Source: Telluria beijingensis (lineage in GTDB: Bacteria > Pseudomonadota > Gammaproteobacteria > Burkholderiales > Burkholderiaceae_D). From it: a stretch of 64,000 nucleotides of DNA. Under the pieces are notes generated by a model that was not told where the DNA came from, made no database searches, and saw nothing but the letters and a program-made list of their open reading frames with translations. The stretch covers positions 540,821 to 604,820 of the forward strand of contig NZ_CP132480.1 in the NCBI RefSeq assembly GCF_030770395.1, written 5' to 3'. The translations under genes were made by a program, and so were the position numbers. This document shows positions 25,068 to 41,036 of this stretch, in pieces; position 1 is the stretch's first letter; each line of letters starts with the position of its first letter.

Positions 25068-26083
25068 GCCAGCTCCGTCGCGACGCTGACTTCGGCCACC
25101 CGCATGCCGTGGCGCGGCGTCGGGATATCGAGGCCGTCGTAACCTTCGGCGAAGCCGCGCAGCGCGATGTACGGCAGGTTGGGGCCGGCCAGGCAGGCCA
25201 TGCCGATCCCGCCCGACATGCGCGGATTGATCTCCAGCAGGCGCGGCCGCCCGCCGCCCTCGCGGAACTGGGCGTTGAACACGCCATTCAACTGGTAGTC
25301 GGCGCACAGGCGGCTGGTGGCGTCCAGGATGTCCTGGCGCATGTCGATCAGCTGGCCGCTGCCGGCCTGCGGCAGCTTGCGGCGCACCACGGCCGATACC
25401 AGGCGGCCGTGGTCGCCCACGCAGTCGACGCTGTATTCGGGGCCATCCAGGAATTCCATCAGCAGCATGGTGGCGAAGTTATCCAGTTCGCCCAGCCCAC
25501 GGCGCAGGTCCTGGTAGCCGATGTGGTGTTCGACGCCTTTCATCAGGAGCGCGGCGCTGCTGCGCTCCTCGTCGACGATGGCGAAACCCAGGCCGTAGAT
25601 GCCGTGCGCCGGCTTGACGCACAACTTCGCATGCTGCGGGCGCAGTTCGGCGTACGCCGCATCGAACTGTTCCAGGTTCTCGAAGGGCCGGAAGGCGGCC
25701 ACCGGCGCTTCCGGCAGCACGGTGGCGGCATAGAAGTCGGCCTTGTCGTGGATGCGTTTCAGCGCGGCCGGCGGGGCGGCGCTGAGCACGCGGGTGCCCA
25801 CGTCGGCGAAGCGCGCGTGTTCCGCGGCCAGGGTGGTGGCTTCGCGGCCGGGCACGAAGATGTCGATCTTCTGGTCACGGCAGAAGGTCAGGCACCAGTC
25901 GACGTAGGCGTCGCCCTTGAGGCCGGTGGGCTCGACGTGGAATTCATGGGCCAGGCGCGCGGCCGGCGCATGGCGGTTGGCATTGCTGTGGATGATGGTG
26001 AAACGGCCTTCGGTATCGGCCTCGCGGATCAGCTTGATCGCCGCATTCACGGACGAAAACGTCCTGTTGTACCAGACGCGCAT
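25064..26083 (-). CDS. ATP-grasp ligase of a Ter cluster
   Basis: A 339-residue ATP-grasp protein. MRVWYNRTFSSVNAAIKLIRE forms the first nucleotide-fold strand, KLCVKPAHGIYGLGFAIV the ATP-clamp lysine loop, and RLLEINPRMSGGIGM the Mg-ATP carboxylate motif. The length fits a biosynthetic ligase joining a carboxylate to an amine. It is the first of six overlapping genes, 94 bases after terD. Substrate unknown; the family assignment is firm. Confidence 0.9.
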   Translation of the reverse strand: MRVWYNRTFSSVNAAIKLIREADTEGRFTIIHSNANRHAPAARLAHEFHVEPTGLKGDAYVDWCLTFCRDQKIDIFVPGREATTLAAEHARFADVGTRVLSAAPPAALKRIHDKADFYAATVLPEAPVAAFRPFENLEQFDAAYAELRPQHAKLCVKPAHGIYGLGFAIVDEERSSAALLMKGVEHHIGYQDLRRGLGELDNFATMLLMEFLDGPEYSVDCVGDHGRLVSAVVRRKLPQAGSGQLIDMRQDILDATSRLCADYQLNGVFNAQFREGGGRPRLLEINPRMSGGIGMACLAGPNLPYIALRGFAEGYDGLDIPTPRHGMRVAEVSVATELA

Positions 26084-26177
26084 GTGGGCTCTCTTGATGG
26101 ATGATCGGCCACTGGCGTGGCGTTGCAGGCCCGCGCCGGGCGGCGCGGACCGTCAGGGATAAGTCCCTGTGTGATGC

Positions 26178-26753
26178 TTAGACGTTGACGCCGAACGAAC
26201 GTGCCAGCGGACCGAGGCCGCCCTTGAAGCCCTGGCCGACGGCGCGGAATTTCCATTCGCTGCCGGCGCGGTACAGCTCGCCGAAGATCATCGCGGTTTC
26301 GGTCGAGCTGTCTTCGGACAGGTCGTAGCGCGCGATCTCGGCTTCGCCGGCGGCGTTCAGGCAGCGGATATAGGCCTTGCCGACCTGGCCGAAGTTCTGG
26401 CGGCGCGCATCGGCGTCGTGGATGGTGACGCAGAACGAGATCTTGTCGATGTCGGCCGGCACGCGCGCCAGGTCGACGGTCAGCTTTTCGTCGTCGCCTT
26501 CGCCCTGGCCGGTGGTGTTGTCGCCGGCGTGGGTCACCGAGCCGTCGGTCGACTTCAGGTTGTTGTAGAAGATGAAGTCGGTATCGCCGCGCACCTTGGC
26601 GTCGGTCTTCAGCATGAAGGCGCTGCCGTCCAGGTCGAAGGCCGAACCGTCGGTCGAGCGCGGATCCCAGCCCAGGCCGATGATGACCTTGGTCAGGCCC
26701 GGTGCTTCCTTGCTCAGGTTGACGTTGCCGCCTTTTTGCAGACTGATTGCCAT
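26178..26753 (-). CDS. terD: Tellurium-resistance/stress protein TerD
   Basis: A 191-residue TerD protein (MAISLQKGGNVNLSKEAP; VIIGLGWDPRSTDGSAFDLDGSAFML; STETAMIFGELYR; GQGFKGGLGPLARSFGV). The acidic loops match those that bind calcium in characterised TerD proteins. The length is normal. The ATG at 26753 has AAGGAG upstream. It leads the Ter biosynthetic cluster. No TerB, TerC or TerZ gene lies in the window, so classic tellurite resistance cannot be assumed; a stress role tied to the biosynthetic genes is more likely. Confidence 0.93.
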   Translation of the reverse strand: MAISLQKGGNVNLSKEAPGLTKVIIGLGWDPRSTDGSAFDLDGSAFMLKTDAKVRGDTDFIFYNNLKSTDGSVTHAGDNTTGQGEGDDEKLTVDLARVPADIDKISFCVTIHDADARRQNFGQVGKAYIRCLNAAGEAEIARYDLSEDSSTETAMIFGELYRAGSEWKFRAVGQGFKGGLGPLARSFGVNV

Positions 26754-27110
26754 GCGAACTCCTTTGTAGTCAGGGTGGATCAACACTCCCGCCGTCGCGC
26801 GCGAGACGCGGCCAACGTCGGGACGATATCGAAACGAGGGCCGGTGAGGATGCCCAACCAGCCGATTGTACACGCTCCGGATTTCACATTAGCTCTTCTT
26901 GCAATGTCCATACACCAATAAATGTGCCGACACAATGTGAATATAAATACAGCAGGAAGGCAGGGGCGTAAGCGCCGCAGTCGAACGGCCACGACATTTT
27001 TCCATTGCAGAAAACAGACACTATATTTTTCTAATTTTTAATTTTATAGAAATAATGTAGTATTTTGGAAAATGTCGTATCGATCGCGGTTCCCTCTGGA
27101 GGAGTGCATC
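26754..27110. promoter_or_regulatory. AT-rich divergent promoter region between terD and the TonB receptor
   Basis: This 357-base gap has no gene. The part from 26880 to 27080 is very AT-rich for this genome. Two exact inverted octamers, TTCACATT (26883-26890) and AATGTGAA (26934-26941), may be an operator. TACAAT-like -10 boxes can be found on the terD strand and several A/T runs on the receptor strand, but I cannot assign either promoter with confidence. GGAGGAG before 27111 sets the receptor start. Confidence 0.55.
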
Positions 27111-29348
27111 ATGTACCGAAGCGTTTTGCAGCTGTCGAACACCGTTTCCAACGACGTCATGCCCGGACAGCGCCGCAAGGCGGTGGCGTTGGCGGTTGCC
27201 TCCCTGGCCTGGCTGGCCAGCGCCCCGGCCTCCGCCCAGCAGCCGCCGGCCCCGGCACAGGATGCCCCCACCGCGATCGAAGCCGCCGAAGTCGTTACCG
27301 TGTCCGCCACCCGGCGCCGCGAACCGGTGCGCGACGTGCCGCTGCGGGTCGAGACCATCAGCGCCGAGGCGCTCGAACGCTCCGGCGCGGCGTCGTTGAG
27401 CGACTACGTGGGCACGCTGCCGGGCGTGCACGTGCACAGCGATGGCGGTCCGGGACGCGGCCAGGTCAAGATCCGCGGCATCACGGTGGGCGGGCTGAGT
27501 TCCCCGACCGTCGGCGTGTACATCGACGACGTGGCCTTCGGCTCCAGCACCGGCTTCGTCGGCGAAGCGGTATCGGCGCTCGACCTGTCGCTGCTCGACC
27601 TGCGCCACGTCGAACTGCTGCGCGGCCCGCAGGGAACGCTGTACGGCGCCGGCGCCATGGGCGGCCTGCTGAAGTACGTGACCAACGACCCCGACCCGAG
27701 CGGCTTCTCGGGCAAGGCCGGCCTGGCGCTGCGCCAGAGCAAGGGCGGCGCGCTGGGCCATATCGAGAACGCGGTCGTCAACGTGCCGCTGAGCGCCGGC
27801 ACGGCGGCCTTGCGGGTCGCCGCCTTCAATGAACACGACGGCGGCTACATCAAGTCGGTCGGCCGGGTCGCGGGCGACCATGCCAACGACGGCGATACGC
27901 GCGGCGTGCGGGTGTCGATGCTGTTCGATCCGAGCTCCAAGCTGCGGGTGCGCCTGACCGCCACCCAGCAGGACATCGAGCGCGATGGCACCAGCATCGC
28001 GCAGTACGACGCCCGCACCGGGCTGCCGCTGCACGGCGACCTGACCCAGCTGCTGTACCGGCCGGAGCCCTATACCATCAAGACCGGGGTCTTGTCGGGC
28101 ACCGTCGAATACGAAATGGGCTGGGCGCGCCTGAACGTGATCACCTCGGCCCAGCGCTTCAAGGGCGAGACGGCGCTGGATGCCACCGAGATCGTGGGCA
28201 TCCCCGGCATCGACTTCGGTGGGCTCGACAACGACATCGACCTGCGCAAGCGCAGCGCCGAAGTGCGCCTGACGTCCGCCCGCGGCCCGCTCGAATGGCT
28301 GCTCGGCTTCTACCACAACAAGGAAACCGGCAGCCGCTCGCAGCGCCTGTGGATCCAGCTGCCCGGCGGTTCGGCGAACGACCTGGTGCGCTCCAGCCAG
28401 CCCTCGCGCTTCCAGGAAAACGCGGTGTATGGCGACATCACCTGGAATCCGGCGCCGGAATGGTCGTTCACCGTCGGCGCGCGCAGCGCGCGCAACCGCC
28501 AGGTGTATGGCACCGAGACCAATGGCGTGAAGGACTTCGAATCGACCGGCAAGGACAGTTCCAAGACCTACCTGGCGACGGCGCGCTACTCGATCGACAA
28601 GACCAGCAGCGTGTACTTCCGCGCCGCCAGCGGCTATCGCCCGGGCGGCCCGAATCCGCCGGCGATCGACCAGGACGGGCAAGTGGTGCCGGGCGCGCCG
28701 CTGACCTTCGAACCCGACAAGCTGTGGAGCTATGAAGTCGGCTACAAGGCGGATTTGCTGCAGCGCCGCCTGTTCCTGGAAGCGGCACTGTTCAGCATTC
28801 GCTGGAAAGACCTGCAATTGCCGATGGCGGTCGGCGTGACTTCGCTGACAGGCAATGCGGGCGAGGCCGAGTCCAATGGCCTGGAACTGGCCGTGCGCTA
28901 CAAGCTCAACGAAAGCTTCAGCCTCGACGGCAGCCTGGCCTGGACCGATGCCACGCTGACCGAGGATGCCCCGGGCCTGGGCCCGTCCGGAGCGCGCCTG
29001 CCGAATTCGGCCCGGCTGTCGGCCACGGTGGGCGGCCGCTACGACTTCCAGCTGGCCGGCAACCGGGCCTGGGCCGGCGTGACCGTGCGCGGCGTCGGCC
29101 AGCGCAATGCCGGCTTCGATACGCCGGTGACCTCGGTGCCGTACTTCAGCATGGCGGGTTATACGCTGGCCGACCTGCAGATGGGCGTGGACGTCAATGG
29201 CTGGGAAGTCGGCGCCTTCGTGCGCAACCTGGCCGACAAGCGCGCGCTGAACAGCGCCGACACCAACCTGACCGCGTTCGGCGGTCCGCTGCGCGCCACG
29301 CCGGTGCAGCCGCGCACCTTCGGCCTGAACCTGACGAGGGCATTCTGA
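27111..29348 (+). CDS. TonB-dependent outer-membrane receptor
   Basis: A 745-residue receptor that would import a ligand using TonB energy. The ATG at 27111 has GGAGGAG at the right distance; an earlier ATG at 27072 lacks one. A signal peptide ends near ASAQQ (about residue 43). A TonB-box-like segment EVVTVSATRRRE precedes the plug (VPLRVETISAEALERSG; LPGVHVHSDGG; GVYIDDVAFG), and a 22-strand-type barrel follows, ending in Phe (NLTRAF), as outer-membrane barrels do. The next gene overlaps its stop by one base, so it belongs to the peptide locus. Siderophore motifs are not evident; a peptide or glycopeptide ligand is inferred from the neighbours. Confidence 0.92.
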   Translation: MYRSVLQLSNTVSNDVMPGQRRKAVALAVASLAWLASAPASAQQPPAPAQDAPTAIEAAEVVTVSATRRREPVRDVPLRVETISAEALERSGAASLSDYVGTLPGVHVHSDGGPGRGQVKIRGITVGGLSSPTVGVYIDDVAFGSSTGFVGEAVSALDLSLLDLRHVELLRGPQGTLYGAGAMGGLLKYVTNDPDPSGFSGKAGLALRQSKGGALGHIENAVVNVPLSAGTAALRVAAFNEHDGGYIKSVGRVAGDHANDGDTRGVRVSMLFDPSSKLRVRLTATQQDIERDGTSIAQYDARTGLPLHGDLTQLLYRPEPYTIKTGVLSGTVEYEMGWARLNVITSAQRFKGETALDATEIVGIPGIDFGGLDNDIDLRKRSAEVRLTSARGPLEWLLGFYHNKETGSRSQRLWIQLPGGSANDLVRSSQPSRFQENAVYGDITWNPAPEWSFTVGARSARNRQVYGTETNGVKDFESTGKDSSKTYLATARYSIDKTSSVYFRAASGYRPGGPNPPAIDQDGQVVPGAPLTFEPDKLWSYEVGYKADLLQRRLFLEAALFSIRWKDLQLPMAVGVTSLTGNAGEAESNGLELAVRYKLNESFSLDGSLAWTDATLTEDAPGLGPSGARLPNSARLSATVGGRYDFQLAGNRAWAGVTVRGVGQRNAGFDTPVTSVPYFSMAGYTLADLQMGVDVNGWEVGAFVRNLADKRALNSADTNLTAFGGPLRATPVQPRTFGLNLTRAF

Positions 29349-31267
29349 TGCTCGGCCTGCGGCTTGCACGCTGGCGCATCGCGCTGTGCGGATTCGCCCT
29401 GGCGCTGGCCGGGGGCCTGTGCGCGCCGCTTGCGGCGCAGGCCCAGGCCCAGGCGCCGGCCGGCCACGCCTTGACCGCGGCCGACCTCGAAACCTGGCTC
29501 GACGGCCTGATGCCCGCCGCTCTGCGCAGCGCCGGCGTGCCCGGCGCGGTGGTGGTGGTGGTCAAGGATGGCCAGCCGCTGCTCGAGAAAGGCTATGGCT
29601 ACGCCGACTGGGAGCGCGGGGTGCCGGTCGATCCGGCGCGCACCTTGTTCCGGCCGGGATCGATCTCCAAGCTGTTCACCTGGACCGCGGTGATGCAACT
29701 GGTCGAGCAGGGCAAGCTCGACCTGGACGCCGACCTGAATCGCTACCTGGACTTCACGGTGCCGGCCTACCGGGGCAAGGCCATGACCCTGCGCCACGTG
29801 ATGACCCACACCACCGGGCTCGAGGAGACCGGGCGCGGGCTGATCGTGTATGGCGAGTCGACGCCGGACAACGGCGCGGTCCTGAAGGGCTATATTCCTC
29901 CTTATCTGTATGAGCCAGGCACCACCCAGGGGTATTCGAACTGGGCCACGGGGCTGGCCGGCTACATCGTGCAGCGCGTGAGCGGGCAATCGTTCGACGA
30001 CTATGTGGAGCAGCGCATCTTCGCGCCGCTGGGCATGCGCCAGTCGACCTTTCGCCAGCCGCTGCCAACGGCGCTGCGCGGCCAGATGTCGCAGGGCTAC
30101 CTGAGCGTGGACGGCAAGCCGAAAGGCTTCGAGATCGTCAGCATGCCGCCGGCCGGCAGCATGGCGGCAACCGGTTCCGACATGGCGCGCTTCATGCTCG
30201 CTTACCTGCAGGGAGGACAGCTCGATGGCCAACGCATCCTGCAGCCGGACACCGTCGCCCGCATGCATTCGACGATCACGCGCGGCCTGCCTGGCCTGAA
30301 CGGCATCGGCCTGGGCTTTTATCAACAAGACCTCAACGGCCACCGCGCCGTCGGCCATGGCGGCGACACCATCCTGTTCCACTCCGACCTGGTCCTGCTG
30401 CCCGACCAGGGCATCGGCCTGTACGTATCGGTCAACGCGGCCGGGCGCCACGACCTGGGCAAGTGGCTGCGCGACCGCGTCTACCACGGCTTCGCCGACC
30501 GCTACCTGCCGGATACGCGCCCGCCCGCCGGGCCCGGCGTCGACCAGGCCACGGCCGAGGCCCACGCGCGTCTGCTGGCCGGCGCCTACCGCAATTCGCG
30601 GCGCGAGGATTCGACCTTCCTCTCGATCCTGCAGCTGGTCAGCCCGTTGCGCATCGAGGACGCCGGGCAGGGCAAGGTGGCGCTGACCATCGGCGGCAGC
30701 CGCAGCGAGTTCCGCGAAGTCCAGCCCTTCCTGTGGCAGGAAGTGAACGGTAAGCGGCGCCTGCAGGCGCTGGTCGAGGACGGGAAAGTCACGCGCTGGG
30801 GCCTGGAGCCGTATGTGTTCGCCTTCGTGTTCGAGCCGGTCCCCTTCATGGCGAGCGGCGCGGTGCTGGCCCTGCTGCTCGGCGCGCTCGGCGTGGCGCT
30901 GGCAACCGCGCTGGCCTGGCCGGTGGCGGCACGCGTGCGGCGCCGCCACGGCCTGGCGCCGCCTCCGCGTTCGCTGGCCTGGGTGCGGATCGCCTGCTGC
31001 CTGGTGCTGGTGAGCGTGGTCTTGTGGACGCTGGTGTTCGTCCTGATCGAGGACAGCGAACCTGGCCTGGTGCTGGTGCTGGCCCAGGCTAGCAGTTGGC
31101 TCGCCTTCGGCGGCGGGCTGCTGGCGGCGCTGTGGCATGCGCGCACCGTGGCGGCGGCCGGCGCCAGGAAGGCGCTGGCGCTGCCCCTGCTGTGGGTGCT
31201 GTGCTTCGCGCTGCTGGTGGCGGTGGGGCTCTATCACCACCTGATGAGCTTCAATCCCCATTTCTGA
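29348..31267 (+). CDS. Class-C beta-lactamase-like serine hydrolase with membrane tail (copy 1)
   Basis: A 639-residue exported enzyme. Signal peptide 1-32, then a class-C beta-lactamase/D-aminopeptidase fold with S105-I-S-K108, Y196-S-N198 and the HGG triad at H337 (GHGGDT). A middle domain (about 400-500) follows, then three to four membrane helices from about 500 to 635. This fusion tethers the catalytic domain to the inner membrane facing the periplasm. The fold includes D-aminopeptidases, esterases and MlrB. The start overlaps the receptor stop (TGATG). The next gene is a paralogue of the same layout. Confidence 0.9.
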   Translation: MLGLRLARWRIALCGFALALAGGLCAPLAAQAQAQAPAGHALTAADLETWLDGLMPAALRSAGVPGAVVVVVKDGQPLLEKGYGYADWERGVPVDPARTLFRPGSISKLFTWTAVMQLVEQGKLDLDADLNRYLDFTVPAYRGKAMTLRHVMTHTTGLEETGRGLIVYGESTPDNGAVLKGYIPPYLYEPGTTQGYSNWATGLAGYIVQRVSGQSFDDYVEQRIFAPLGMRQSTFRQPLPTALRGQMSQGYLSVDGKPKGFEIVSMPPAGSMAATGSDMARFMLAYLQGGQLDGQRILQPDTVARMHSTITRGLPGLNGIGLGFYQQDLNGHRAVGHGGDTILFHSDLVLLPDQGIGLYVSVNAAGRHDLGKWLRDRVYHGFADRYLPDTRPPAGPGVDQATAEAHARLLAGAYRNSRREDSTFLSILQLVSPLRIEDAGQGKVALTIGGSRSEFREVQPFLWQEVNGKRRLQALVEDGKVTRWGLEPYVFAFVFEPVPFMASGAVLALLLGALGVALATALAWPVAARVRRRHGLAPPPRSLAWVRIACCLVLVSVVLWTLVFVLIEDSEPGLVLVLAQASSWLAFGGGLLAALWHARTVAAAGARKALALPLLWVLCFALLVAVGLYHHLMSFNPHF

Positions 31268-31286
31268 TCCTGCACGGAGGAAGACC

Positions 31287-33278
31287 ATGACAGTACGTAC
31301 CCGATTGCTGTCCCTGTTCGCGGCCGGCGTGCTGCTCGGAGCCGGCCCGGCCCTGGCCGCGCAGTCCGATCCGCCGGCGGTGCAGACGCCGCAGGCGCCG
31401 AGTGCCCCCGAATCTGCCCCCGAACCTGCCGCCGTCGCTCACACGCTCGACGCCGCCGACCTCGCGGCCTGGCTCGACGGCCAGGTGCCGTATTCGCTCG
31501 AAAGCGGCGACATCGCCGGCATGGCGATCAGCGTGGTCAAGGACGGCAAGGTCCTGCTGCAGAAAGGGTATGGCCTGGCCGACGTCGAGGCCAAGGTCCC
31601 GATGGATCCCGCGACCACCCTGCTGCGGCCCGGCTCGACCTCCAAGCTGTTCACCTGGACCGCCGTCATGCAACTGGTCCAGCAGGGCAGGATCGATCTC
31701 GACCGCAACGTCAACGACTACCTCGACTTCAGGATCGAGGAAGCGTTCGGCAAGCCGGTGACCATGCGCCACCTGATGAACCACCGCGCCGGCTTCGAGG
31801 AGGGGCTGAAGGACTTGCTGGGCTACGATCCGGCCCTGGCCCAGAGCACCGAACAGTACCTGAAGGGGCATCCGCGGCCGATGCTGTTCGCGCCCGGCGC
31901 GGTGCCCGGCTATTCGAACTACGGCGTGGCGCTGGCCGGCTACATCGTGCAGCGCGTCTCCGGCATGCCGTTCGAGACCTATGTCGAGCGCCATATCTTT
32001 GCGCCGCTGGGCATGCGCCACTCGACCTTCGTCCAGCCGCTGCCCGCGAACTTCCCCGGCCGGCTGTCGAAAGGCTACCGCACTACCGACGCCCCGCCGT
32101 CGCCGTTCGAGATCGTGATCACGGCGCCCGCCGGTTCGGTCACCACCACCGCGGCCGACATGGCGCGCTTCATGCTGGCCCACCTGCAGCAGGGCAGCCT
32201 GGAGGGCTACCAGATGCTGGACGCGGCCACCACCGCGCGCATGCACAGCCCCAGCGTCGACGGCCTGCCGGGCTTCGGCACGATGGCGCACGGATTCTTT
32301 CGCCTGACGCACAACGGCCGCACGCTGCTCGGGCACGGCGGCGACACGGTGGTCTACCACACCGACATGAACCTGCTGCCCGACGAAGGCGTGGGCATCT
32401 ATTTCACCTACAACGGCCTGGGCAAGGATGGGGCGGTGTATGGCGCGCGCAAGGAACTGATGGACGGCTTCATGCGGCGCTACTTCCCGGCGGCTGCCGG
32501 CACAGCGCCGCCGCCGGCACTGGCGTCGGCCGTGGAAGACGCGCAGCGCATCGCCGGCCGCTACCAGAGTTCGCGCCGGGTCGAGAACGGCTTCCTGCGC
32601 TTCTTCTACCTGCTGCAGCAGACCGTCATCACTGCCAACCCGGACGGCACCATCGAAGTGCCCGATGGCCTGGGCGGCGTGGACACCATGCGCGCGGTGG
32701 GCCCGCAACTGTGGCGCGCGGTCGATGGCGCTCGGATGGTGGCGCTGAAGGAGGTCGACGGCGTCAGGACCGTGATCGACAGCGAGAACCCGGTCGCGGT
32801 GCTGCAGCAGGACAGCTTCGCCAACTCGGCGCCGCTGAACGTGAGCATCCTGCTGCTATCCTTCCTGGTGCTGGCGGGCACGCTGGCGGCCTGGCCGCTG
32901 GGGGCCTTGCTGCGCCGCGCCGACCGCGCCACCAGCGGCGCCACGCCGGCGCAGCGCCGGCCGCGCACCGTCCAGCGCGTGGCTGCGGCGGTTGCGCTGG
33001 CCTATATGGCGGCCTGGTTCATGCTGATCACGCCGGTGCTGAGCACCGATCTCGCGGTCTACCATAGCGGGATCGACTGGATCGTCGGCCTGCTGCAGGC
33101 GAGCGGCCTGCTGGCCATCGGCGCGGCCGCGGCCGGGCTGTGGGCCACCTGGCGCCTGTGGCGCGGCGATGCCTCGCGCCTGCGCCGCAGCTGGGCGATA
33201 CTGGTGGCGCTGGCGCTGCTGGGCGTGGTCTGGCTGGGCATCGTCGGCGAGCTGATAACCTGGAACCTGAACTACTGA
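31287..33278 (+). CDS. Class-C beta-lactamase-like serine hydrolase with membrane tail (copy 2)
   Basis: A 663-residue paralogue of the preceding gene with the same order: signal peptide (to about 25, ending ALAAQ), a Pro-rich linker, and a hydrolase domain with S117-T-S-K120, YSN in PGYSNYG and a later GHGGDT. A C-terminal region of about four membrane helices begins near residue 515. A ribosome site (GGAGG) lies before the ATG. The two copies probably arose by tandem duplication and may cut different bonds. The MlrC-like gene starts on its last stop base (TGATG). Confidence 0.9.
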   Translation: MTVRTRLLSLFAAGVLLGAGPALAAQSDPPAVQTPQAPSAPESAPEPAAVAHTLDAADLAAWLDGQVPYSLESGDIAGMAISVVKDGKVLLQKGYGLADVEAKVPMDPATTLLRPGSTSKLFTWTAVMQLVQQGRIDLDRNVNDYLDFRIEEAFGKPVTMRHLMNHRAGFEEGLKDLLGYDPALAQSTEQYLKGHPRPMLFAPGAVPGYSNYGVALAGYIVQRVSGMPFETYVERHIFAPLGMRHSTFVQPLPANFPGRLSKGYRTTDAPPSPFEIVITAPAGSVTTTAADMARFMLAHLQQGSLEGYQMLDAATTARMHSPSVDGLPGFGTMAHGFFRLTHNGRTLLGHGGDTVVYHTDMNLLPDEGVGIYFTYNGLGKDGAVYGARKELMDGFMRRYFPAAAGTAPPPALASAVEDAQRIAGRYQSSRRVENGFLRFFYLLQQTVITANPDGTIEVPDGLGGVDTMRAVGPQLWRAVDGARMVALKEVDGVRTVIDSENPVAVLQQDSFANSAPLNVSILLLSFLVLAGTLAAWPLGALLRRADRATSGATPAQRRPRTVQRVAAAVALAYMAAWFMLITPVLSTDLAVYHSGIDWIVGLLQASGLLAIGAAAAGLWATWRLWRGDASRLRRSWAILVALALLGVVWLGIVGELITWNLNY

Positions 33279-34750
33279 TGAAATTCTTTATCGCCCACCT
33301 GGCCACCGAGACCAATACCTTTGCCGCCGCGCCGACCGGGCTAGGCGACTTCGAGGAAGTCGGCGTCTATCACGGCGACGCCAGCGTGCGCGACCCCGAA
33401 GGCGCGGGCGCCTTCCTGCGCCATCTGCGTGGCCTGGTCGAGGCCGACGGCGGCGAGGTGGTCGAAAGCCTGTGCACGCTGGCCCAGCCGGGCGGACGCA
33501 CGCTGCGCCCGGTGTACGAGGCGCTGCGCGACGAGATACTGGCCGACCTGCGGGCAGCGCTGCCGGTCGACGCGGTGCAGTTGCTGCTGCATGGCGCGAT
33601 GGCGGCCGAGGGCTACGACGATTGCGAAGGCGACCTGGCGGCCCGCATCCGCGAGATCGTCGGGCCCGGGGTGCCGGTCGGGATGGTGCTCGACCTGCAC
33701 TGCCATTTCACGGAGTTGATGCACAGTTCGAGCGACGCGATCGTCGCCCTCAAGGAATACCCGCACACCGACACCGACGAGCGCGGGCGGGAACTGTACC
33801 GGATCCTGAAGGACACCGTGGCCGGCCGCGTGCGGCCCGTGACCGCGGTGTTCGACTGCAGGATGGTCGGCCTGTGGCACACCACCCGCGAGCCGATGCA
33901 GGGTTTTGTCAGGCGCATGCAGGAGGTCGAACGGATGCCCGGCGTGCTGTCGGTCTCGCTCGGCCACGGCTTCCCCTGGGGCGACGTGCCGGAAGCGGGC
34001 GCCAAGCTGTGGGTGGTGACCGATAACGACCCGGCGCTGGCCGCGACCCTGGCGCGCCAGCTGGGCGCCGAGTTCTGGGCCCTGCGCACGCGGATCGGGC
34101 CCGAGGTGCTGGACGTCGACGCGGCGCTCGACCTGGTCCCCGCGAAGGTGGATCGGGCAGGGCCGCTGGTACTGGCCGACATCGCCGACAATCCCGGCGG
34201 CGGCGCCGCCGGCGACAGCACCTTCATCCTGCGCCGGATCGTCGAGCGCGGGATCGCGAACGTGGCCATCGGCGCGTTCTGGGACCTGGGCGCGGTCCAC
34301 ATCTGCAAGAGCGCGGGCGTGGGCGCCCGGATCGACCTGCGCATCGGCGGCAAGTGCGGGCCGGCGTCGGGCCTGCCGGTCGACCTGCGCGTGACCGTGC
34401 GCGCGATCGTGTTGAATCACACCCAGAGCGCGCTCGGCGCCCGCGAGCGCCTGGGCGACTGCGTGTGGGTCGAGGCGGCCAACGGCCTGCACATCCTGCT
34501 GGCCTCGATCCGCACCCAGACCTATGGCCTGGACGCCTTCACCGGCCTGGGCATCGGCCTGGCCGACAAGGCGCTGGTGGTGGTGAAGTCAACGCAGCAC
34601 TTTTACGCCGAGTTCGCGCCGCTGGCGCGCCAGGTCGGCTACGTCACCACGCCGGGCGCGATGAGCTTCGACTTCGCCGCCATTCCCTATCGCCTGCGAA
34701 CAGGGGGTTACTGGCCGCGCGTGACCGATCCGCATGACGCGGAACTATAA
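33278..34750 (+). CDS. M81-family (MlrC-like) metallopeptidase
   Basis: A 490-residue cytoplasmic metallopeptidase of family M81, whose namesake is microcystinase C. Family features: the start FIAHLATETNTFAAAPTGL, the zinc-site strand GMVLDLHCHFTELM, KEYPHTDTDERG, and the second domain PLVLADIADNPGGGAAGDST. No signal peptide. Length is in the family range (about 490-510). MlrC cuts short linear peptides inside the cell. Translationally coupled to the preceding hydrolase. Substrate specificity cannot be read from the sequence. Confidence 0.92.
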   Translation: MKFFIAHLATETNTFAAAPTGLGDFEEVGVYHGDASVRDPEGAGAFLRHLRGLVEADGGEVVESLCTLAQPGGRTLRPVYEALRDEILADLRAALPVDAVQLLLHGAMAAEGYDDCEGDLAARIREIVGPGVPVGMVLDLHCHFTELMHSSSDAIVALKEYPHTDTDERGRELYRILKDTVAGRVRPVTAVFDCRMVGLWHTTREPMQGFVRRMQEVERMPGVLSVSLGHGFPWGDVPEAGAKLWVVTDNDPALAATLARQLGAEFWALRTRIGPEVLDVDAALDLVPAKVDRAGPLVLADIADNPGGGAAGDSTFILRRIVERGIANVAIGAFWDLGAVHICKSAGVGARIDLRIGGKCGPASGLPVDLRVTVRAIVLNHTQSALGARERLGDCVWVEAANGLHILLASIRTQTYGLDAFTGLGIGLADKALVVVKSTQHFYAEFAPLARQVGYVTTPGAMSFDFAAIPYRLRTGGYWPRVTDPHDAEL

Positions 34751-34774
34751 TAGGCGCTCTACAGAGGACACTGC

Positions 34775-35497
34775 ATGGCAACCAAACGCGCGATCAATCA
34801 CGGGCCTGGACCGGACGGCAACCTGGGCGAATCGCTCAGGCGCATCCGCAAGGAGCGTGGCATGACACTGACCGAGGCGGGCGAGAAGAGCGGCATGCCC
34901 ATGTCCACCATTTCCAAGATCGAAAACAACAAGATGTCGCTCAGCTACGACAAGCTGCTGCGCATCTGTAATGCGCTGGAGATCGACATCTCGCAGTTGT
35001 TCAGCGGCGGCCCGGCGGTGGACAAGGCGCCGGTGCCGGCGTCCAGCGGGCGCCGCAGCATCAACCGGCGCGACACCGGCTACGTGATCGACACGCCCAA
35101 TTATTCGCACCTGTATCCGGCGGCCGACCTGCTGAACAAGCGCGCGGTGCCGGTGTTCGCCGAAATCCACGTGCGCTCGCTGGCCGAGTTCGGCGAGCTG
35201 ATTCGCCATCCGGGCGAGGAATTCGCCCTGGTCCTCGAAGGCGCGATCGACATGTACACCGACCTGTACGCGCCGCTGCGGCTCGAGACGGGCGACTCCA
35301 TCTATTTCGACAGCGGCATGGCGCACGCCTATATCGCGGTCGGCGAAGGCACCTGCCGCCTGCTGTCGGTGTGCATCTCGGACGAACCGAACTCCGAGGC
35401 CGCTTTTGCTTCGCTGTTCGATGGGGCCGAGCCGGCGCCGGTGCCCGCGCCTCCGCCGGCGCCGGGAAAGCCGAAGAAGCAGTCCTCCAAGCCGTAG
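34775..35497 (+). CDS. XRE-family regulator with cupin sensor domain
   Basis: A 240-residue regulator: helix-turn-helix at about 17-72 (LGESLRRIRKERGMTLTEAGE; MPMSTISKIENNKMS) and a cupin beta-barrel at about 110-205 (HPGEEFALVLEGAIDMYTD; LETGDSIYFDSGMAHAY). It ends in a Pro/Lys tail. XRE-cupin proteins usually control amino-acid or polyamine use and bind the small molecule in the cupin. It lies 24 bases after the M81 gene and before the oxidase, so it probably controls this locus. AGAGGA precedes the ATG. Confidence 0.9.
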   Translation: MATKRAINHGPGPDGNLGESLRRIRKERGMTLTEAGEKSGMPMSTISKIENNKMSLSYDKLLRICNALEIDISQLFSGGPAVDKAPVPASSGRRSINRRDTGYVIDTPNYSHLYPAADLLNKRAVPVFAEIHVRSLAEFGELIRHPGEEFALVLEGAIDMYTDLYAPLRLETGDSIYFDSGMAHAYIAVGEGTCRLLSVCISDEPNSEAAFASLFDGAEPAPVPAPPPAPGKPKKQSSKP

Positions 35498-35523
35498 TTT
35501 TCCAGAAAAGAAAAGGTATGCGT

Positions 35524-35541
35524 CCCGTGCTCCGGCACGGG
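35524..35541 (+). terminator. Possible hairpin after the XRE-cupin gene
   Basis: CCCGTGC pairs with GCACGGG around a four-base loop, 27 bases after the stop. A second CCGTGC further on offers alternative pairing. No T run follows, so it may attenuate rather than end transcription into the oxidase gene. Confidence 0.35.
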
Positions 35542-35653
35542 CACGGACGGCCCGTGCGCGCGCGATTTCCGGCCCGCCGCCGGGCGTCGCAGGCCGCGTC
35601 AGAAAACGCTTGCACGCGCCTTGTCGATGGCATATCTTTCATTTGCAGAATAA

Positions 35654-35672
35654 TTTTTCTCCAATCGAAAAA
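35654..35672. promoter_or_regulatory. Candidate operator before the oxidase gene
   Basis: An exact dyad TTTTTC-7-GAAAAA lies in a short AT-rich patch (35630-35680) 37 bases before the oxidase start. The position suits control by the XRE-cupin protein encoded upstream. Assignment is by position only. Confidence 0.3.
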
Positions 35673-35709
35673 CAATGATCGACCGGGATGAAAGGCGAGC
35701 AGTAACCAC

Positions 35710-36846
35710 ATGAATCAAGACACTGCGGATTTCATCGTGATCGGCGCCGGGATCGGCGGCGCCTCGGTCGCCTACTGGCTGTCGCAGCGCGCGCGCGTGA
35801 TCGTGCTGGAAGGCGAGACCCAGCCCGGCTACCACAGCACCGGACGCTCGGCCGCGCTGTTCATGGAAAGCTACGGGCCGGACCAGGTGCGCGCGCTGAC
35901 CCGGGCCAGCCTCGGTTTCTTCCGTAACCCGCCGCCGGGATTCGGCGAGCATGCGCTGCTGTCGCCGCGCGGCGCCTTCATGTTCGCCGCCCCCGGCCAG
36001 GAAGCCGCCCTCGACGCCCATGAAGCCACGGTGCGCGCGACCTCCTCGGCGGTGCAGCGCCTCGACGCCCGGGCCGCGCTGGAACTGCTGCCGGTGCTGC
36101 GTCCTGGCCAGGTGGCGGGCGGCGTGCTGGAACAGGATGCCGCCGACATCGACGTCGACGCCCTGCTGCAGGGCTTCCTGCGCGGCGTGCGCCGGCAGGG
36201 CGGTCGCATCGTGTGCGACGCCCGCGTCGGCGCCATGCGGCGCAGCGGCGGCCTGTGGGAAGTGTCTGCCGCCGGCACGACCTTCCGCGCGCCGGTGGTC
36301 GTCAACGCCGCTGGCGCCTGGGCCGACGCGGTCGCGCGCCTGGCCGGCGCCGATCCGGTGGGATTGGTGCCCAAGCGCCGCTCGGCCTTCCTGTTCGCGC
36401 CGCCCGAAGGTATGGACACGGCCCGCTGGCCGATGGTACTGGACGTGACGGAATCGTTCTATATCAAGCCGGATGCCGGCATGCTGCTGGGTTCCCCCTG
36501 CAATGCCGATCCGGCGCCGCCGCACGACGTGCAGGCCGAGGAACTCGATATCGCGCTCGCCATCGACCAGATCGAGCGCCAGACCACCCTGCGCATCCGC
36601 CGGCCGACCCACGTGTGGGCCGGGCTGCGCAGCTTCGTCGCCGACGGCGAACTGGTGGGCGGACACGACGCGAAGCTGCCCGGATTCTTCTGGGCCGCCG
36701 GGCAGGGCGGCTACGGCATCCAGTCCGCGCCCGGCGCGGGGCGCTACTACGCCTCGGTCCTGCTGGGCGCGGCGCCCGATCCGCAACTGGCGGCGTCCGG
36801 CTTCGATCCGGCCCGCATCAGCCCATCGCGTTTCACTCTTCCATGA
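35710..36846 (+). CDS. DAO-family FAD-dependent oxidoreductase
   Basis: A 378-residue flavoenzyme of the glycine/D-amino-acid oxidase (DadA/DAO) family. The FAD motif is FIVIGAGIGGASVAYWLS, followed by ARVIVLEGETQPGYHSTGRSA, VVNAAGAWADAVARLAG and the late FFWAAGQGGYGIQSAPGAG. Members oxidise amines or D-amino acids to imines. No signal peptide, so cytoplasmic. It is followed directly by the peptide transporter gene, whose frame carries an ATG overlapping this stop. Linked by position to the peptidases, it could process released D- or N-modified residues. Confidence 0.88.
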   Translation: MNQDTADFIVIGAGIGGASVAYWLSQRARVIVLEGETQPGYHSTGRSAALFMESYGPDQVRALTRASLGFFRNPPPGFGEHALLSPRGAFMFAAPGQEAALDAHEATVRATSSAVQRLDARAALELLPVLRPGQVAGGVLEQDAADIDVDALLQGFLRGVRRQGGRIVCDARVGAMRRSGGLWEVSAAGTTFRAPVVVNAAGAWADAVARLAGADPVGLVPKRRSAFLFAPPEGMDTARWPMVLDVTESFYIKPDAGMLLGSPCNADPAPPHDVQAEELDIALAIDQIERQTTLRIRRPTHVWAGLRSFVADGELVGGHDAKLPGFFWAAGQGGYGIQSAPGAGRYYASVLLGAAPDPQLAASGFDPARISPSRFTLP

Positions 36847-36866
36847 CCGCCACCGGAGACACCACC

Positions 36867-38165
36867 ATGCGTGACAAGGATAGCTGGTTCGGCCAGCCCA
36901 AGGGCCTGACGATTCTGTTCCTGACCGAGATGTGGGAGAAGTTCTCGTTCTTCGGCATGCGCGCGCTGCAGATCTATTACATGACGAAGGAGCTGCAGTT
37001 CACGCACGCGTCCGCGTCGCTGATCTTCGGCGCCTACGCGGCCGGGGTGTACCTGACGCCGATCTTCGGCGGCATCATCGCCGACCGCTGGCTGGGACGG
37101 CGTCCGGCCGTGATCCTCGGCGGGCTCCTGATGGCGCTGGGCCACTTCATGATGGCTTTCGAGTCGCTGTTCTTCCCGGCGATGGTGGTGATCGCGATCG
37201 GCAACGGCCTGTTCCTGCCGAACCTGCCGAGCCAGGTCAATCTGCTGTACGCGAAAAACGATCCGCGCGCCGGCTCCGCCTTCAATGTCTATTACGTGGG
37301 CATCAACCTGGGCGCCTTCCTGGCGCCGCTGATCTGCGGCACGCTGGGCGAAGTGTATGGCTGGCACTACGGCTTCGGCGCCGCCGGCATCGGCATGTGC
37401 CTGGGCCTGGCGATCTATGTCTGGGGCGGCAAGTACCTGCCGCCCGAGGCCTCGAAGCCGGCCGCCCGCACCCCTCCGGTCCAGGGTGCGGAAGGGTATG
37501 GCACGATCCCGCTGCTGGCCGGTGTCGCGGTAGCGGTCATGCTGTTCCGGATCGCCTATGAACAGACCGGGAATACCTTCGCCATCTGGGCCGATGGCGC
37601 CGTCGACCGCCAGGCCTTCGGCATGACGATCCCCGTCACCTGGTTCCAGTCGCTCAACCCGATGTTCGTGTTCCTGCTCAGCCCCCTGCTGGTGCGCATG
37701 TGGAACGCCCGCGCCGCCCGCGGCCACGCGGTGCCGGCGCTGGAGCGCATGACCCTGGGCGCGTTCGGCATCGGCGTGGCCTATGCCTTGCTGGCCGGGC
37801 TGATCCTGATGGGCGCCGGCGCCGGCTATACCCTCGGCTGGATCTGGATGGTGGGCTTCTTCGCCGTCTTCACCCTGGCCGAGCTGTACATCCTGCCGGT
37901 GGGGCTGGGCCTGTTCGCGACCCTGGCGCCGAAGCGCTTCGCCGCCACCACGGTCGCCGCCTGGTTCTTCTGCTCCTTCGTCGGCAACCTGCTGTCGGGC
38001 GTGATCGGCGCGTTCTGGACCCGCACCAGCCCGCATATATTCTTCCTGCTCATGGCCGCGATCTGCGCCGTGTCGAGCCTGATGCTGTACCGGATCCACC
38101 GGATCCACCGGGCCAGTCCGGTGTCGCAGGCGGTCGTGGTGCCGCCGGTCGAGAAGGCGCTGTAA
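36867..38165 (+). CDS. POT/PTR-family proton-peptide symporter
   Basis: A 432-residue MFS transporter of the proton-dependent oligopeptide family. The signature near the start, FLTEMWEKFSFFGMRALQIYYM, carries the ExxEK/R proton-coupling motif. Later GAYAAGVYLTPIFGGIIADRWLGRR and NVYYVGINLGAFLAPL fit the family. Twelve or so helices are visible. The ATG at 36867 is preferred because CGGAG lies nine bases upstream; an ATG at 36843 overlaps the oxidase stop but lacks a ribosome site. It is shorter than DtpA (about 500). It should import di- or tripeptides and is the counterpart of MlrD in microcystin clusters. Confidence 0.9.
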   Translation: MRDKDSWFGQPKGLTILFLTEMWEKFSFFGMRALQIYYMTKELQFTHASASLIFGAYAAGVYLTPIFGGIIADRWLGRRPAVILGGLLMALGHFMMAFESLFFPAMVVIAIGNGLFLPNLPSQVNLLYAKNDPRAGSAFNVYYVGINLGAFLAPLICGTLGEVYGWHYGFGAAGIGMCLGLAIYVWGGKYLPPEASKPAARTPPVQGAEGYGTIPLLAGVAVAVMLFRIAYEQTGNTFAIWADGAVDRQAFGMTIPVTWFQSLNPMFVFLLSPLLVRMWNARAARGHAVPALERMTLGAFGIGVAYALLAGLILMGAGAGYTLGWIWMVGFFAVFTLAELYILPVGLGLFATLAPKRFAATTVAAWFFCSFVGNLLSGVIGAFWTRTSPHIFFLLMAAICAVSSLMLYRIHRIHRASPVSQAVVVPPVEKAL

Positions 38166-38270
38166 TCTCCGTATTGGAGGAATAGGCAAAAGACGTCCAG
38201 CTTCCGGCAACGCGGGCCGCTGCGCGAAATCGATACTGAGTGCTCTTCCCATCCCCTGAAGGAGCACAGC

Positions 38271-39026
38271 ATGAACAAGATCGCACTCGTCACCGGCGCC
38301 AGCCGCGGCCTTGGCCGCAACACCGCACTGCACATCGCGCGCCGCGGCGGCGACGTGATCGTCACCTACCAAAGCCGCGAGCAGGAGGCCCAGGCCGTGG
38401 TCGACGAGATCCGCGCGCTGGGCCGCCGGGCGCTGGCGCTGCGGCTCGACGTCGGCAATGTCGCCGGTTTCCCGGCCTTCGCCGCCAGCCTGCGCGCCGG
38501 CTTGCAGGAAACCTGGGGCCGCGACAGCTTCGACCACCTGGTCAACAACGCCGGCCATGGCGACATGGCGCCGATCGCGGACACCACCGAAGCCCGGTTC
38601 GACCGACTGGTCGACGTCCATTTCAAGGGCGTTTTCTTCCTGACCCAGGCCCTGCTGCCGCTGCTGGCCGATGGTGGGCGCATCGTCAACCTGTCGAGCG
38701 GCCTGACCCGCGTTTCCTTCCCTGGCTTCGGCGCCTATGCGGCGGTAAAGGGGGCGGTCGAGGTGCTGAGCGTCTACCTGGCCAGGGAACTGGGCAGCCG
38801 CGGCATCGCCGTCAACACGGTGGCGCCGGGCGCGATCGAGACCGACTTCCTGGGCGGCGCGGTGCGCGATACGCCGGACCTGAATGGCGTCTTCGCCGGC
38901 ATGACGGCGCTGGGGCGGGTGGGGGTTCCGGACGATATCGGGCCGATGATCGCCAGCCTGCTGGGCGAGGACAATCGGTGGGTCAATGGCCAGCGCATCG
39001 AGGTCTCGGGCGGGCAGGTGATCTGA
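38271..39026 (+). CDS. Short-chain dehydrogenase/reductase
   Basis: A 251-residue classical SDR: cofactor motif TGASRGLG, NNAG, catalytic Ser in NLSSG and the YAAVK pair (Y-x-x-x-K), ending in a GGQVI tail. RHYQSRE-type residues after the second strand suggest NADP preference, weakly. AAGGAG precedes the ATG. A 105-base gap separates it from the peptide transporter, so it may be its own unit. It ends back to back with the convergent AraC gene. Substrate unknown. Confidence 0.9.
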   Translation: MNKIALVTGASRGLGRNTALHIARRGGDVIVTYQSREQEAQAVVDEIRALGRRALALRLDVGNVAGFPAFAASLRAGLQETWGRDSFDHLVNNAGHGDMAPIADTTEARFDRLVDVHFKGVFFLTQALLPLLADGGRIVNLSSGLTRVSFPGFGAYAAVKGAVEVLSVYLARELGSRGIAVNTVAPGAIETDFLGGAVRDTPDLNGVFAGMTALGRVGVPDDIGPMIASLLGEDNRWVNGQRIEVSGGQVI

Positions 39027-39905
39027 TCAGGCGGCCTGCAGGCGTCTCACTTCGCGCACCGGCGGCAGCCCGAACATGCGCCCGTATTCGCGCGTGAACT
39101 GCTGCACGCTCTCGTAGCCGACCGTATGCGCGGCCAGGCTCGCGCTGGCGCCTTCGGCCAGCATCAGGCGGCGCGCCTCGATCAGGCGCAGCTGCTTCTG
39201 GAATTGCAGCGGCGTGAGCGAGGTCACGGCGCGGAAGTGGTGGTGGAAGGACGATGGACTCATGCCGGCCAGGGCCGCCAGCTCCTCGACCGGCAGGCGG
39301 CGCGCATATTCGCGGCGCAGGACGGCGACCGCGCGCGCCACGCGCCGCACATGGCTGTCGGGCAGGCCCAGGCGCCGGATCGCGGCGCCGTGGCGCCCCA
39401 GCAGCAGCCAGTAATGGAATTCACGGACCAGGGCGTCCTTCAGCACCGGGATCGAGGCCGGCCGCTCCAGGAGGCGCATCAGTCGCAGGGCGGTGTCGTG
39501 CAGGTGTGCGTCGGTGGGTTCGGCGCGCACCGGCGCCTGGCCGTCATCGTCCAGCGCCGCCATCTCGGTCGACAGGCCGGCGATCACCGCCGGGTCGAGG
39601 TCGAGCACCAGCGAGCAATAGGGAGCGGAAGCACTGGCTTGGGTCACCTGGCTGACGGTCGGCACGTCGGCCATGACCAGGAGCGAGTCGCCGGCCGCGA
39701 AGGTAAACGACTGGCTGCCCATCGTGACGTGCTTGCGGCCTTGCAGCACCAGGCAGGCCAGCGGCCGTGCGATCTGGTAGCTGAGGGCCGAGCGTTCGGT
39801 GGCGCGGATCGCCACCAGGCCCGGGATCGGCGTGCGCGCCACGCCGTCCCGGTCCGCCAGGTGGTCCGCATGGCGCAGCACGGTGTCGAGAAGTTCGCTC
39901 TTCAT
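39027..39905 (-). CDS. AraC-family transcriptional regulator
   Basis: A 292-residue regulator with an N-terminal ligand-binding beta domain (RPLACLVLQGRKHVTMGSQSF; DSLLVMADVPTVSQV) of the AraC_N type and a C-terminal double helix-turn-helix (LPVEELAALAGMSPSSFHHHFRAVTSLTPLQFQKQLRL; VGYESVQQFTREYGRMFG is the second). Its stop codon abuts the SDR stop. AraC regulators of this class often control an adjacent oxidoreductase, but here the genes converge, so the target is uncertain. Confidence 0.9.
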   Translation of the reverse strand: MKSELLDTVLRHADHLADRDGVARTPIPGLVAIRATERSALSYQIARPLACLVLQGRKHVTMGSQSFTFAAGDSLLVMADVPTVSQVTQASASAPYCSLVLDLDPAVIAGLSTEMAALDDDGQAPVRAEPTDAHLHDTALRLMRLLERPASIPVLKDALVREFHYWLLLGRHGAAIRRLGLPDSHVRRVARAVAVLRREYARRLPVEELAALAGMSPSSFHHHFRAVTSLTPLQFQKQLRLIEARRLMLAEGASASLAAHTVGYESVQQFTREYGRMFGLPPVREVRRLQAA

Positions 39906-39929
39906 GTGCGCCAGTGTAGACCATCTGCG

Positions 39930-41036
39930 CTACGCTGCTCTCGCTTCGCCGGTGTCGGGCTTTTGCAGCGACGTCATCGATGCCGATTCCGCAGGCGCAG
40001 CTTCGCGCGCCAGCTTCACCGTCTGCACCGGCAGCGCCAGCGCCACGCCGCGCTGTTCCAGTCCGGCCAGGATGGCCAGGTAGATTTCCTGCTGCGTCGT
40101 CATGTAGACGGCATAGTCGGTGTTGTCGACGTAGTACACCGTTTCGTAGTTGAAGCTGGGTGCGGCGATGCTGCTCAGGTGGGCGCGGTCGAAGCGCACC
40201 TGCGGCTGGGCGCTGACGATCTCCTTGATCATCTCCGGCAGTTCGCGCAGCACCGACGCCGGCGTCAGGTGCGATACCGCGAACTGGAACACGACCCGGC
40301 GCGATTCCATGCGGCGCAGGTTCTGCACGCGGCTCGTAAGCAGGTCGTTGTTCGAGAACACGATCTGCTCGCCGGAGAGGCTGCGCACGCGGGTGGTCTT
40401 GAGGCCGATCTTTTCCACCGTACCCAGCATGGTGCCGACGATGATGAAGTCGCCGACCACGAAGGGCTTGTCGAGCACGATCGAGAGCGAGGCGAACAGG
40501 TCGCCCAGGATGCTCTGCACCGCCAGCGCGATGGCGATGCCGCCGATGCCCAGGCTGGCCACCAGGGTGGTGATGTTCACGCCCAGGTTGTCCAGCACCA
40601 TCAGGGCCAGCACCGCCCACAGCAGCACCCTGACCAGGAAGGTGATCGCGGCCGAGGAGGTGATGCGGTCCGGGTCTTCGCTGCGCTCGGCGCGCTTCGC
40701 CCTGAGCCAGGTGCGTAGCGCGTGGTCGCCCCAGATCGCGACCTGGAACAGCACCGCCGTGATCGCGACCCGGCTCAGGAACAGCTGGGCCTTGTCGGAC
40801 AAGGCCAGGAAACTGGCGCCGGCATAGATGCCGACGATGACCAGCACCAGCAGCTTGGTCGAGCGCAGCGCGGCCACGGCGATATCGTCCCACTTGGCCT
40901 CGGTACGGGCCGCGAGCACGGCCAGGCGCCGCGCCAGGATCGATTTGACGGCGTCCAGTCCGGCCGCGACGGCGGCCACCACGACCAGCGCGACCAGCCA
41001 GTCGGCGACGGGATTCTTGAGGATGACGTATTCCAT
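39930..41036 (-). CDS. MscS-family mechanosensitive ion channel
   Basis: A 368-residue small-conductance mechanosensitive channel. Four or five hydrophobic segments precede the pore-lining helix with ASLGIGGIAIALAVQSILGDLFASL, the MscS hallmark. KPFVVGDFIIVG and the beta domain follow (GTVEKIGLKTTRVRSLSGEQIVFSNNDLL). It opens on hypo-osmotic shock to release solutes. A GTG one codon upstream of the ATG is an alternative start; AAAGGA lies a little far from both. It follows the glucosylglycerol-phosphate enzyme gene on the same strand with a 29-base gap, an obvious osmotic pair. Confidence 0.92.
   Translation of the reverse strand: MEYVILKNPVADWLVALVVVAAVAAGLDAVKSILARRLAVLAARTEAKWDDIAVAALRSTKLLVLVIVGIYAGASFLALSDKAQLFLSRVAITAVLFQVAIWGDHALRTWLRAKRAERSEDPDRITSSAAITFLVRVLLWAVLALMVLDNLGVNITTLVASLGIGGIAIALAVQSILGDLFASLSIVLDKPFVVGDFIIVGTMLGTVEKIGLKTTRVRSLSGEQIVFSNNDLLTSRVQNLRRMESRRVVFQFAVSHLTPASVLRELPEMIKEIVSAQPQVRFDRAHLSSIAAPSFNYETVYYVDNTDYAVYMTTQQEIYLAILAGLEQRGVALALPVQTVKLAREAAPAESASMTSLQKPDTGEARAA

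Follow-up and report, generated by a model that had tools for sequence, protein, structure and literature searches.

A candidate regulon for the catabolism of short D-amino-acid peptides in Telluria beijingensis

Layout of the locus and its operator-like motif

The window analysed here, a stretch of 64,000 nucleotides from the genome of Telluria beijingensis (a single contig of 6,017,275 bases), carries at positions 27111-38165 seven genes on the plus strand, which encode in order a TonB-dependent receptor (TBDR), two S12 serine hydrolases (SH1 and SH2), an M81 metallopeptidase, an XRE-cupin regulator, a protein of the D-amino-acid oxidase family (DAO) and a POT peptide transporter (Table 1). 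The original prediction, made from the letters of the stretch, had named these genes with their positions and families, and all were borne out by the listing of open reading frames (ORFs) and by Pfam. The M81 protein is the only MlrC_C-family protein encoded in the genome. We consider it quite probable that the locus constitutes one regulon for the catabolism, and incidental detoxification, of short D-amino-acid peptides.

Table 1. Genes and operator-like sites of the locus (window coordinates; FAD, flavin adenine dinucleotide)
Feature	Position	Strand	Remarks
Operator-like palindrome TTTTC-N7-GAAAA	26998-27014	+	Upstream of receptor gene; overlaps sigma-70-like match 26999-27027
TonB-dependent receptor (TBDR), plug and barrel	27111-29348	+	PF07715, PF00593
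SH1, S12 hydrolase	29348-31267	+	PF00144
SH2, second S12 hydrolase	31287-33278	+	PF00144
M81 metallopeptidase	33278-34750	+	PF07364 (DUF1485), PF07171 (MlrC_C)
XRE-cupin regulator	34775-35497	+	HTH_3, Cupin_2
Second operator-like palindrome	35498-35514	+	Directly 3' of regulator gene
Third operator-like palindrome	35655-35671	+	Upstream of DAO; directly after sigma-70-like match 35627-35654
DAO, DauA-type FAD-dependent D-amino-acid dehydrogenase	35710-36846	+	416 bits to 3nyc
POT/PTR2 proton-peptide symporter	36843 or 36867 to 38165	+	PF00854, TIGR00924

The five genes from the receptor to the regulator are never more than 24 bp apart and appear to form one transcription unit, while DAO and POT, about 210 bp beyond, look like a second. 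Overlapping starts, initially attributed to the first four genes, are indeed found for TBDR/SH1 and SH2/M81, which share one base each, but not for SH1 and SH2, which lie 19 bp apart; DAO and POT share 4 bp if the latter starts at 36843.

The palindrome TTTTC-N7-GAAAA has three occurrences in the window, where shuffles give an expectation of 0.01, and five in the whole 6-Mb genome (reversed control pattern: one). The region contains two sigma-70-like matches, with 1.0 expected, and both overlap or abut palindromes. With one shared operator-like motif before each, the two transcription units are probably co-regulated, and the XRE-cupin protein may act as a repressor through these sites. The palindrome is kept in seven of the eight related loci described below (L numbers designate loci, G numbers genomes): it stands before both TBDR and DAO in L032, L046, L126, L128 and L129, and L100 and L102 each have a single copy immediately ahead of M81; none is found in L042. 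Nor was it found in the sister-type loci L125, L130 and L131, or in L072, L086, L090, L103, L105, L119 and L120. The two remaining genomic sites, at 2.13 and 4.02 Mb, show no clear link to the system. The second of these, TTTTCCGATACAGAAAA (L163 5572-5588; C1:4019571 of G000, the genome of the window), has an apparent sugar ATP-binding cassette (ABC) importer downstream, as judged by eye.

Recurrence of the gene set and a sister locus

Recurrence in other genomes, which the original prediction had proposed as one of its tests, was observed: TBDR, S12, M81, XRE, DAO and POT matches occur together in eight other loci, six in the taxonomic order of the window and two alphaproteobacterial. The former are L032/L033 (G269), L042 (G250), L046 (a Massilia metagenome-assembled genome, MAG) and, within the family of the window, L126 (G820), L128 (G749) and L129 (G870); the latter are the MAG loci L100 (Rhizomicrobium) and L102. 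These sets were detected by tblastn, on which gene positions in some loci (e.g., L032 and L102) rest. L042 has a single S12 gene and an M81 gene of the second kind only (see below). By title and abstract, no description of such a locus was found among the open PubMed Central papers listed.

The full set is rare. SH1-type proteins (E<=1e-70) were found in 3 of 300 genomes sampled from the order, the window's own included, in 5 of 398 from the phylum and in 10 of 245 from the family, these samples overlapping. In the order sample, the gene set lies at the window locus and in G269 and G250, with one more SH1-type copy elsewhere in the genome of the window. Seventeen distinct SH1-type loci comprise six with M81, DAO, XRE, POT and TBDR, six with DgcA- and/or DgcN-like genes and a TonB receptor, and five (L127, L132, L133, L134 and L137) with neither disposal set. 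A survey of 80 named M81 loci, counting matches over threshold such that weaker ones are hidden, returned DAO in 20, XRE in 19, both in 15, TBDR in 10, S12 in 15 and POT in 3, from which M81, DAO and XRE emerge as the commoner core. The close M81 clade (E ~1e-113 or better) is represented at 13 places in the order sample, six of them within 10 kb of one of 30 DAO matches (E<=1e-70); the random expectation for such pairs is about 0.007, by arithmetic assuming 4 Mb per genome. An XRE-cupin neighbour accompanies 20 of 28 M81-linked DAO genes, versus 2 of the 24 DAO loci of one order that are not beside M81, which have no TBDR, S12 or POT match.

A paralogous sister locus lies at 1.45 Mb in the same genome (L125 687-11971; G000 C1 ~1446686-1457970). 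It comprises a divergent XRE-cupin gene, a tethered S12 hydrolase (45% identical to SH1), a POT carrier (56%), a TBDR (31%), an S12 gene with DUF3471 and an M19 dipeptidase, with DgcA-like and DgcN-like genes in place of M81 and DAO. The latter two score just under their curated cutoffs (343 of 400 and 427 of 480 bits, respectively); judging by the NCBIfam names, DgcA and DgcN presumably serve D-glutamate use. The sister set is also present in G793 and G874, in G504 (where POT has no match) and, in part, in G512 and G623, as well as on plasmids of Croceicoccus marinus and of Sphingobium yanoikuyae, where POT was neither annotated nor found. Relatives of this pathway are used by the sister locus and by mixed loci holding both disposal sets (L045, L052, L064 and L100), and are absent from the window locus. 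Among 240 genomes of the family, DgcN was found in G000, G874 and G793, with one marginal match in G812, and was absent from the listed window-type relatives G269 and G820; the window-type locus therefore occurs in genomes without DgcN. Major facilitator superfamily (MFS) proteins of mixed-type loci were considered as AmpG muropeptide carriers, and no such match was obtained for L045, L050 and L100 at E<=1e-20.

Other gene neighbourhoods deserve mention. M55 peptidases, which act on D-residues, occur in the Rhizobiales M81 loci L086 and L111, and at 35% identity in L072 and L112; on an Ensifer plasmid (L167 8065-15136), one adjoins M81, an XRE regulator and an ABC importer whose permease carries the annotation D,D-dipeptide. 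Four Rhizobiales M81 loci encode a relative of BhcC (3-hydroxy-D-aspartate aldolase); the one that was scanned, from L072, reaches 80.7 of 690 bits. A penicillin-amidase-family gene adjoins M81 in Methylobacterium loci (scanned in L060, 7609-9966; by sequence cluster also in L063, L069 and L070), and an M20 peptidase lies beside M81 in L057. Next to the locus itself, the downstream SDR gene (38271-39026) was considered and left out of the set, as no SDR match of at least 60 bits appears in the eight related loci (L032/L033, L042, L046, L100, L102, L126, L128 and L129). On the minus strand at 19833-26753, a run of genes resembles a tellurium-resistance-type (TerD-like) cluster, as judged by eye from the translations.

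Conserved residues and predicted topology of the encoded proteins

S12 peptidases are recognized by an SxxK, a YxN and a third, H/K-x-G, motif. All three are present in SH1 (SISK105, YSN196 and HGG, with H337) and in SH2 (STSK, YSN and HGG), which is 41% identical to SH1. Each protein has an N-terminal hydrophobic segment and four C-terminal hydrophobic stretches by hydropathy, and the AlphaFold2 model of SH1 (pLDDT 85) places C-terminal helices at 504-534, 541-567, 573-603 and 607-629. Both hydrolases are thus predicted to be membrane-tethered by four C-terminal transmembrane (TM) helices, as had been anticipated, with SH1 facing the periplasm. The closest curated families are AmpH for SH1, at 87.5 bits against a cutoff of 266, and class C beta-lactamase for SH2. 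Structural matches of the SH1 model include the D-acting Lip3, Pab87 and full-length ClbP among esterases and beta-lactamases, similarity within S12 being broad. Lip3, one of two Paenibacillus DL-peptidases described as induced by the lipopeptide syringafactin (PMC13188892), and ClbP, which removes N-myristoyl-D-Asn (PMC9889270), are both reported to cleave amide bonds at D-residues. The likeness resides in the S12 fold, the aligned range extending to the C-terminal helices; identity is only about 20%, and the roles of Lip3 and ClbP, predator defence and colibactin maturation, are not those of an uptake operon.

DAO aligns over its full length with DauA, the D-arginine dehydrogenase of Pseudomonas aeruginosa (3nyc; 416 bits over 370 residues), so that the initial family assignment, an oxidase, was right and can be narrowed to that of a DauA-type D-amino-acid dehydrogenase. 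It keeps Y53 and E246 (DauA numbering), as well as R222, Y249 and R305, by which the DauA type is recognized. It differs from DauA in the nonpolar residues at E87 (Ala89 in the window) and H48 (Leu), and in its linkage to M81 and an XRE-cupin gene. Glutamate is found at the E87 position in none of the 53 rows compared. In DauA, E87 is reported to bind the guanidinium group (PMC11193025). Because alanine takes its place here, we reject D-arginine as the preferred substrate. The pocket residues are small and nonpolar, and predict nonpolar D-amino acids as substrates. A divergently oriented Rid-family gene separates XRE from DAO in G269, G820, L046 and G870, and one lies near DAO in L038, L040 and L139; the window and G749 have none between XRE and DAO. 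The one gene scanned scores 94 bits against the TIGR00004 cutoff of 106. Some Rid proteins are described to deaminate the DauA product (PMC5619798).

The carrier scores 266.9 bits against TIGR00924 (cutoff 130.2), and EMWEKFSFFG in the window corresponds to the POT motif ExxERFxYYG. The TM4 lysine of GTGxxKPN, important in POT symporters, is replaced by leucine in the window (GNGLFLPN), and leucine or methionine occupies this position in 12 of 12 related rows.

The M81 protein matches DUF1485 (286 bits, cutoff 22.8) and MlrC_C (166 bits, cutoff 27.2), and aligns to the MlrC structure 7ylq with an E value of 9e-97. The MlrC zinc ligands E39, D167, H169 and H191, as named in PMC9982164, correspond to E11, D139, H141 and H163 of the window protein, as expected of the M81 family; its score against the NCBIfam model of MlrC, 345.5 bits, is below the cutoff of 999. 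A tree of 126 M81 proteins was built by a quick method under a simple model, with SH-aLRT supports, and calls for caution about long branches. The window protein clusters with six others (support 100), all from loci with DAO and TBDR, while the second M81 proteins of L032, L046, L126 and L129 form, with that of L042, a separate clade (99). MlrC falls within the broad clade (100, versus 20 outgroup rows), on a long branch apart from the window protein and with an unsure placement. Since the combination of DAO and TBDR requires at least five changes on this tree, the set has been assembled or lost repeatedly.

Proposed pathway and competing explanations

The best reading of the DauA-type match with its nonpolar pocket, the S12 structural matches, the Rid genes and the D-glutamate-type genes of the sister locus is that of a system dedicated to D-residues, although the S12 model matches esterases and beta-lactamases besides D-acting peptidases. 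For the substrate, activities, direction of transport, repression and order of steps, we infer the following scheme. The TonB receptor would import the peptide across the outer membrane, whereupon SH1 and SH2, anchored at the inner membrane and active on its periplasmic side, would cut it at D-residues. The POT symporter would bring the fragments into the cytoplasm, the M81 zinc peptidase would finish them, and the DauA-type dehydrogenase would oxidise the freed nonpolar D-amino acids to imino acids, to be hydrolysed spontaneously or, in the four relatives whose loci encode it, by a Rid protein. The XRE-cupin protein would bind TTTTC-N7-GAAAA over both promoters until released by a substrate-derived ligand.

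This scheme shares its logic with the mlr cluster (MlrA-F) of sphingomonads, a parallel already drawn in the original prediction. As presented in PMC12474180, that cluster offers the same gene classes, namely a periplasmic serine hydrolase (MlrB), an M81 zinc peptidase (MlrC) and a peptide carrier (MlrD), a substrate with D-residues and the same proposed order of compartments. The logic from import to oxidation stands as that of a coherent, co-conserved locus with a shared motif, but membership in the mlr system does not: the locus works like mlr in its logic and is a different system. It has in addition a TonB receptor, an XRE-cupin regulator and a D-amino-acid dehydrogenase, and its S12 proteins end in a TM region, a feature not shared by MlrB, which is tabulated with no TM helices (PMC12474180). 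The dipeptidase and D-aminoacylase given for mlrE and mlrF in PMC4520899 have no counterpart among the seven genes. Consistent with the earlier remark that an MlrA-like CaaX protease was not seen, no CaaX-type match was obtained among ten ORFs scanned in 27111-40715, the rest of the genome not having been searched for MlrA. An annotated mlr cluster, sought with MlrC in a plasmid collection, gave no match at E<=1e-120. Despite the shared classes and the conserved zinc ligands, it is extremely improbable that the locus is a genuine mlr-type system acting on microcystin or nodularin, and we reject a strict one on the subthreshold MlrC score, the separate long branch of MlrC and the lack of MlrA among the scanned ORFs. 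Very improbable as well is a chance neighbourhood, in which a receptor-hydrolase operon would merely adjoin an unrelated oxidase-transporter operon. The division into two transcription units and the distance between the regulator and oxidase genes would suit it; we reject it on the recurrence of the gene set in loci of two classes and on the excess of palindromes over expectation, with an identical one before both units.

Regarding the substrate, we lean towards nonribosomal (lipo)peptides and place peptidoglycan stem peptides second. Uptake of nonribosomal products is common among TonB receptors, and the locus could import and degrade the lipopeptides or nonribosomal peptides of competitors, for food and protection, a reading which we favour tentatively and hold at somewhat below an even chance. 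A tether in the membrane is well suited to acyl peptides, and the nonpolar pocket of DAO to D-Leu or D-Val; among the structural matches are syringafactin-induced Lip3 and ClbP, acting on N-myristoyl-D-Asn (PMC13188892, PMC9889270); nevertheless, S12 structural similarity is broad, and neither a producer nor a substrate is linked to the locus. Alternatively, and rather unlikely, stem peptides or muropeptides would be scavenged from dead neighbours: the S12 enzymes would remove D-Ala, M81 would cut before D-iso-Glu, by analogy with MlrC, which cleaves the Adda-Glu bond in the microcystin tetrapeptide, and D-Ala would be burned by the DauA-type enzyme. The small nonpolar pocket residues would fit such a diet, and so would the D-glutamate-type genes recurring beside M81 and S12 genes, a nagA-type gene 0.7 kb past the last S12 gene in L100, and the match of SH1, far under cutoff, to AmpH, a DD-carboxypeptidase/endopeptidase. 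Conversely, the absence of DgcN from G269 and G820 makes D-Glu release by the locus not obvious, and no muropeptide amidase, L,D-peptidase or AmpG-type carrier was found among the flanking genes scanned, a minority of all flanking genes.

More broadly, we put at even odds the proposal that TonB-linked D-peptide utilisation loci form an undescribed class, equivalent for peptides to what polysaccharide utilisation loci are for sugars. A TonB receptor, a POT carrier, an XRE-cupin regulator and a TM-tethered S12 peptidase would make up an uptake core, combined with exchangeable disposal cassettes that consist either of M81 and a DauA-type dehydrogenase, Rid being optional, or of DgcA/DgcN and an M19 dipeptidase; one genome could hold both, and the mlr microcystin cluster would be a specialised offshoot. 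Peptidoglycan peptides and nonribosomal antibiotics owe their persistence in soil and water to D-residues. If true, our proposal would name genes by which bacteria recycle such peptides, indicate a way in which peptide antibiotics are destroyed by competitors, and hint at a possible origin of the microcystin-degradation genes. The motif TTTTC-N7-GAAAA, together with the gene set, provides a handle for finding and testing such loci.

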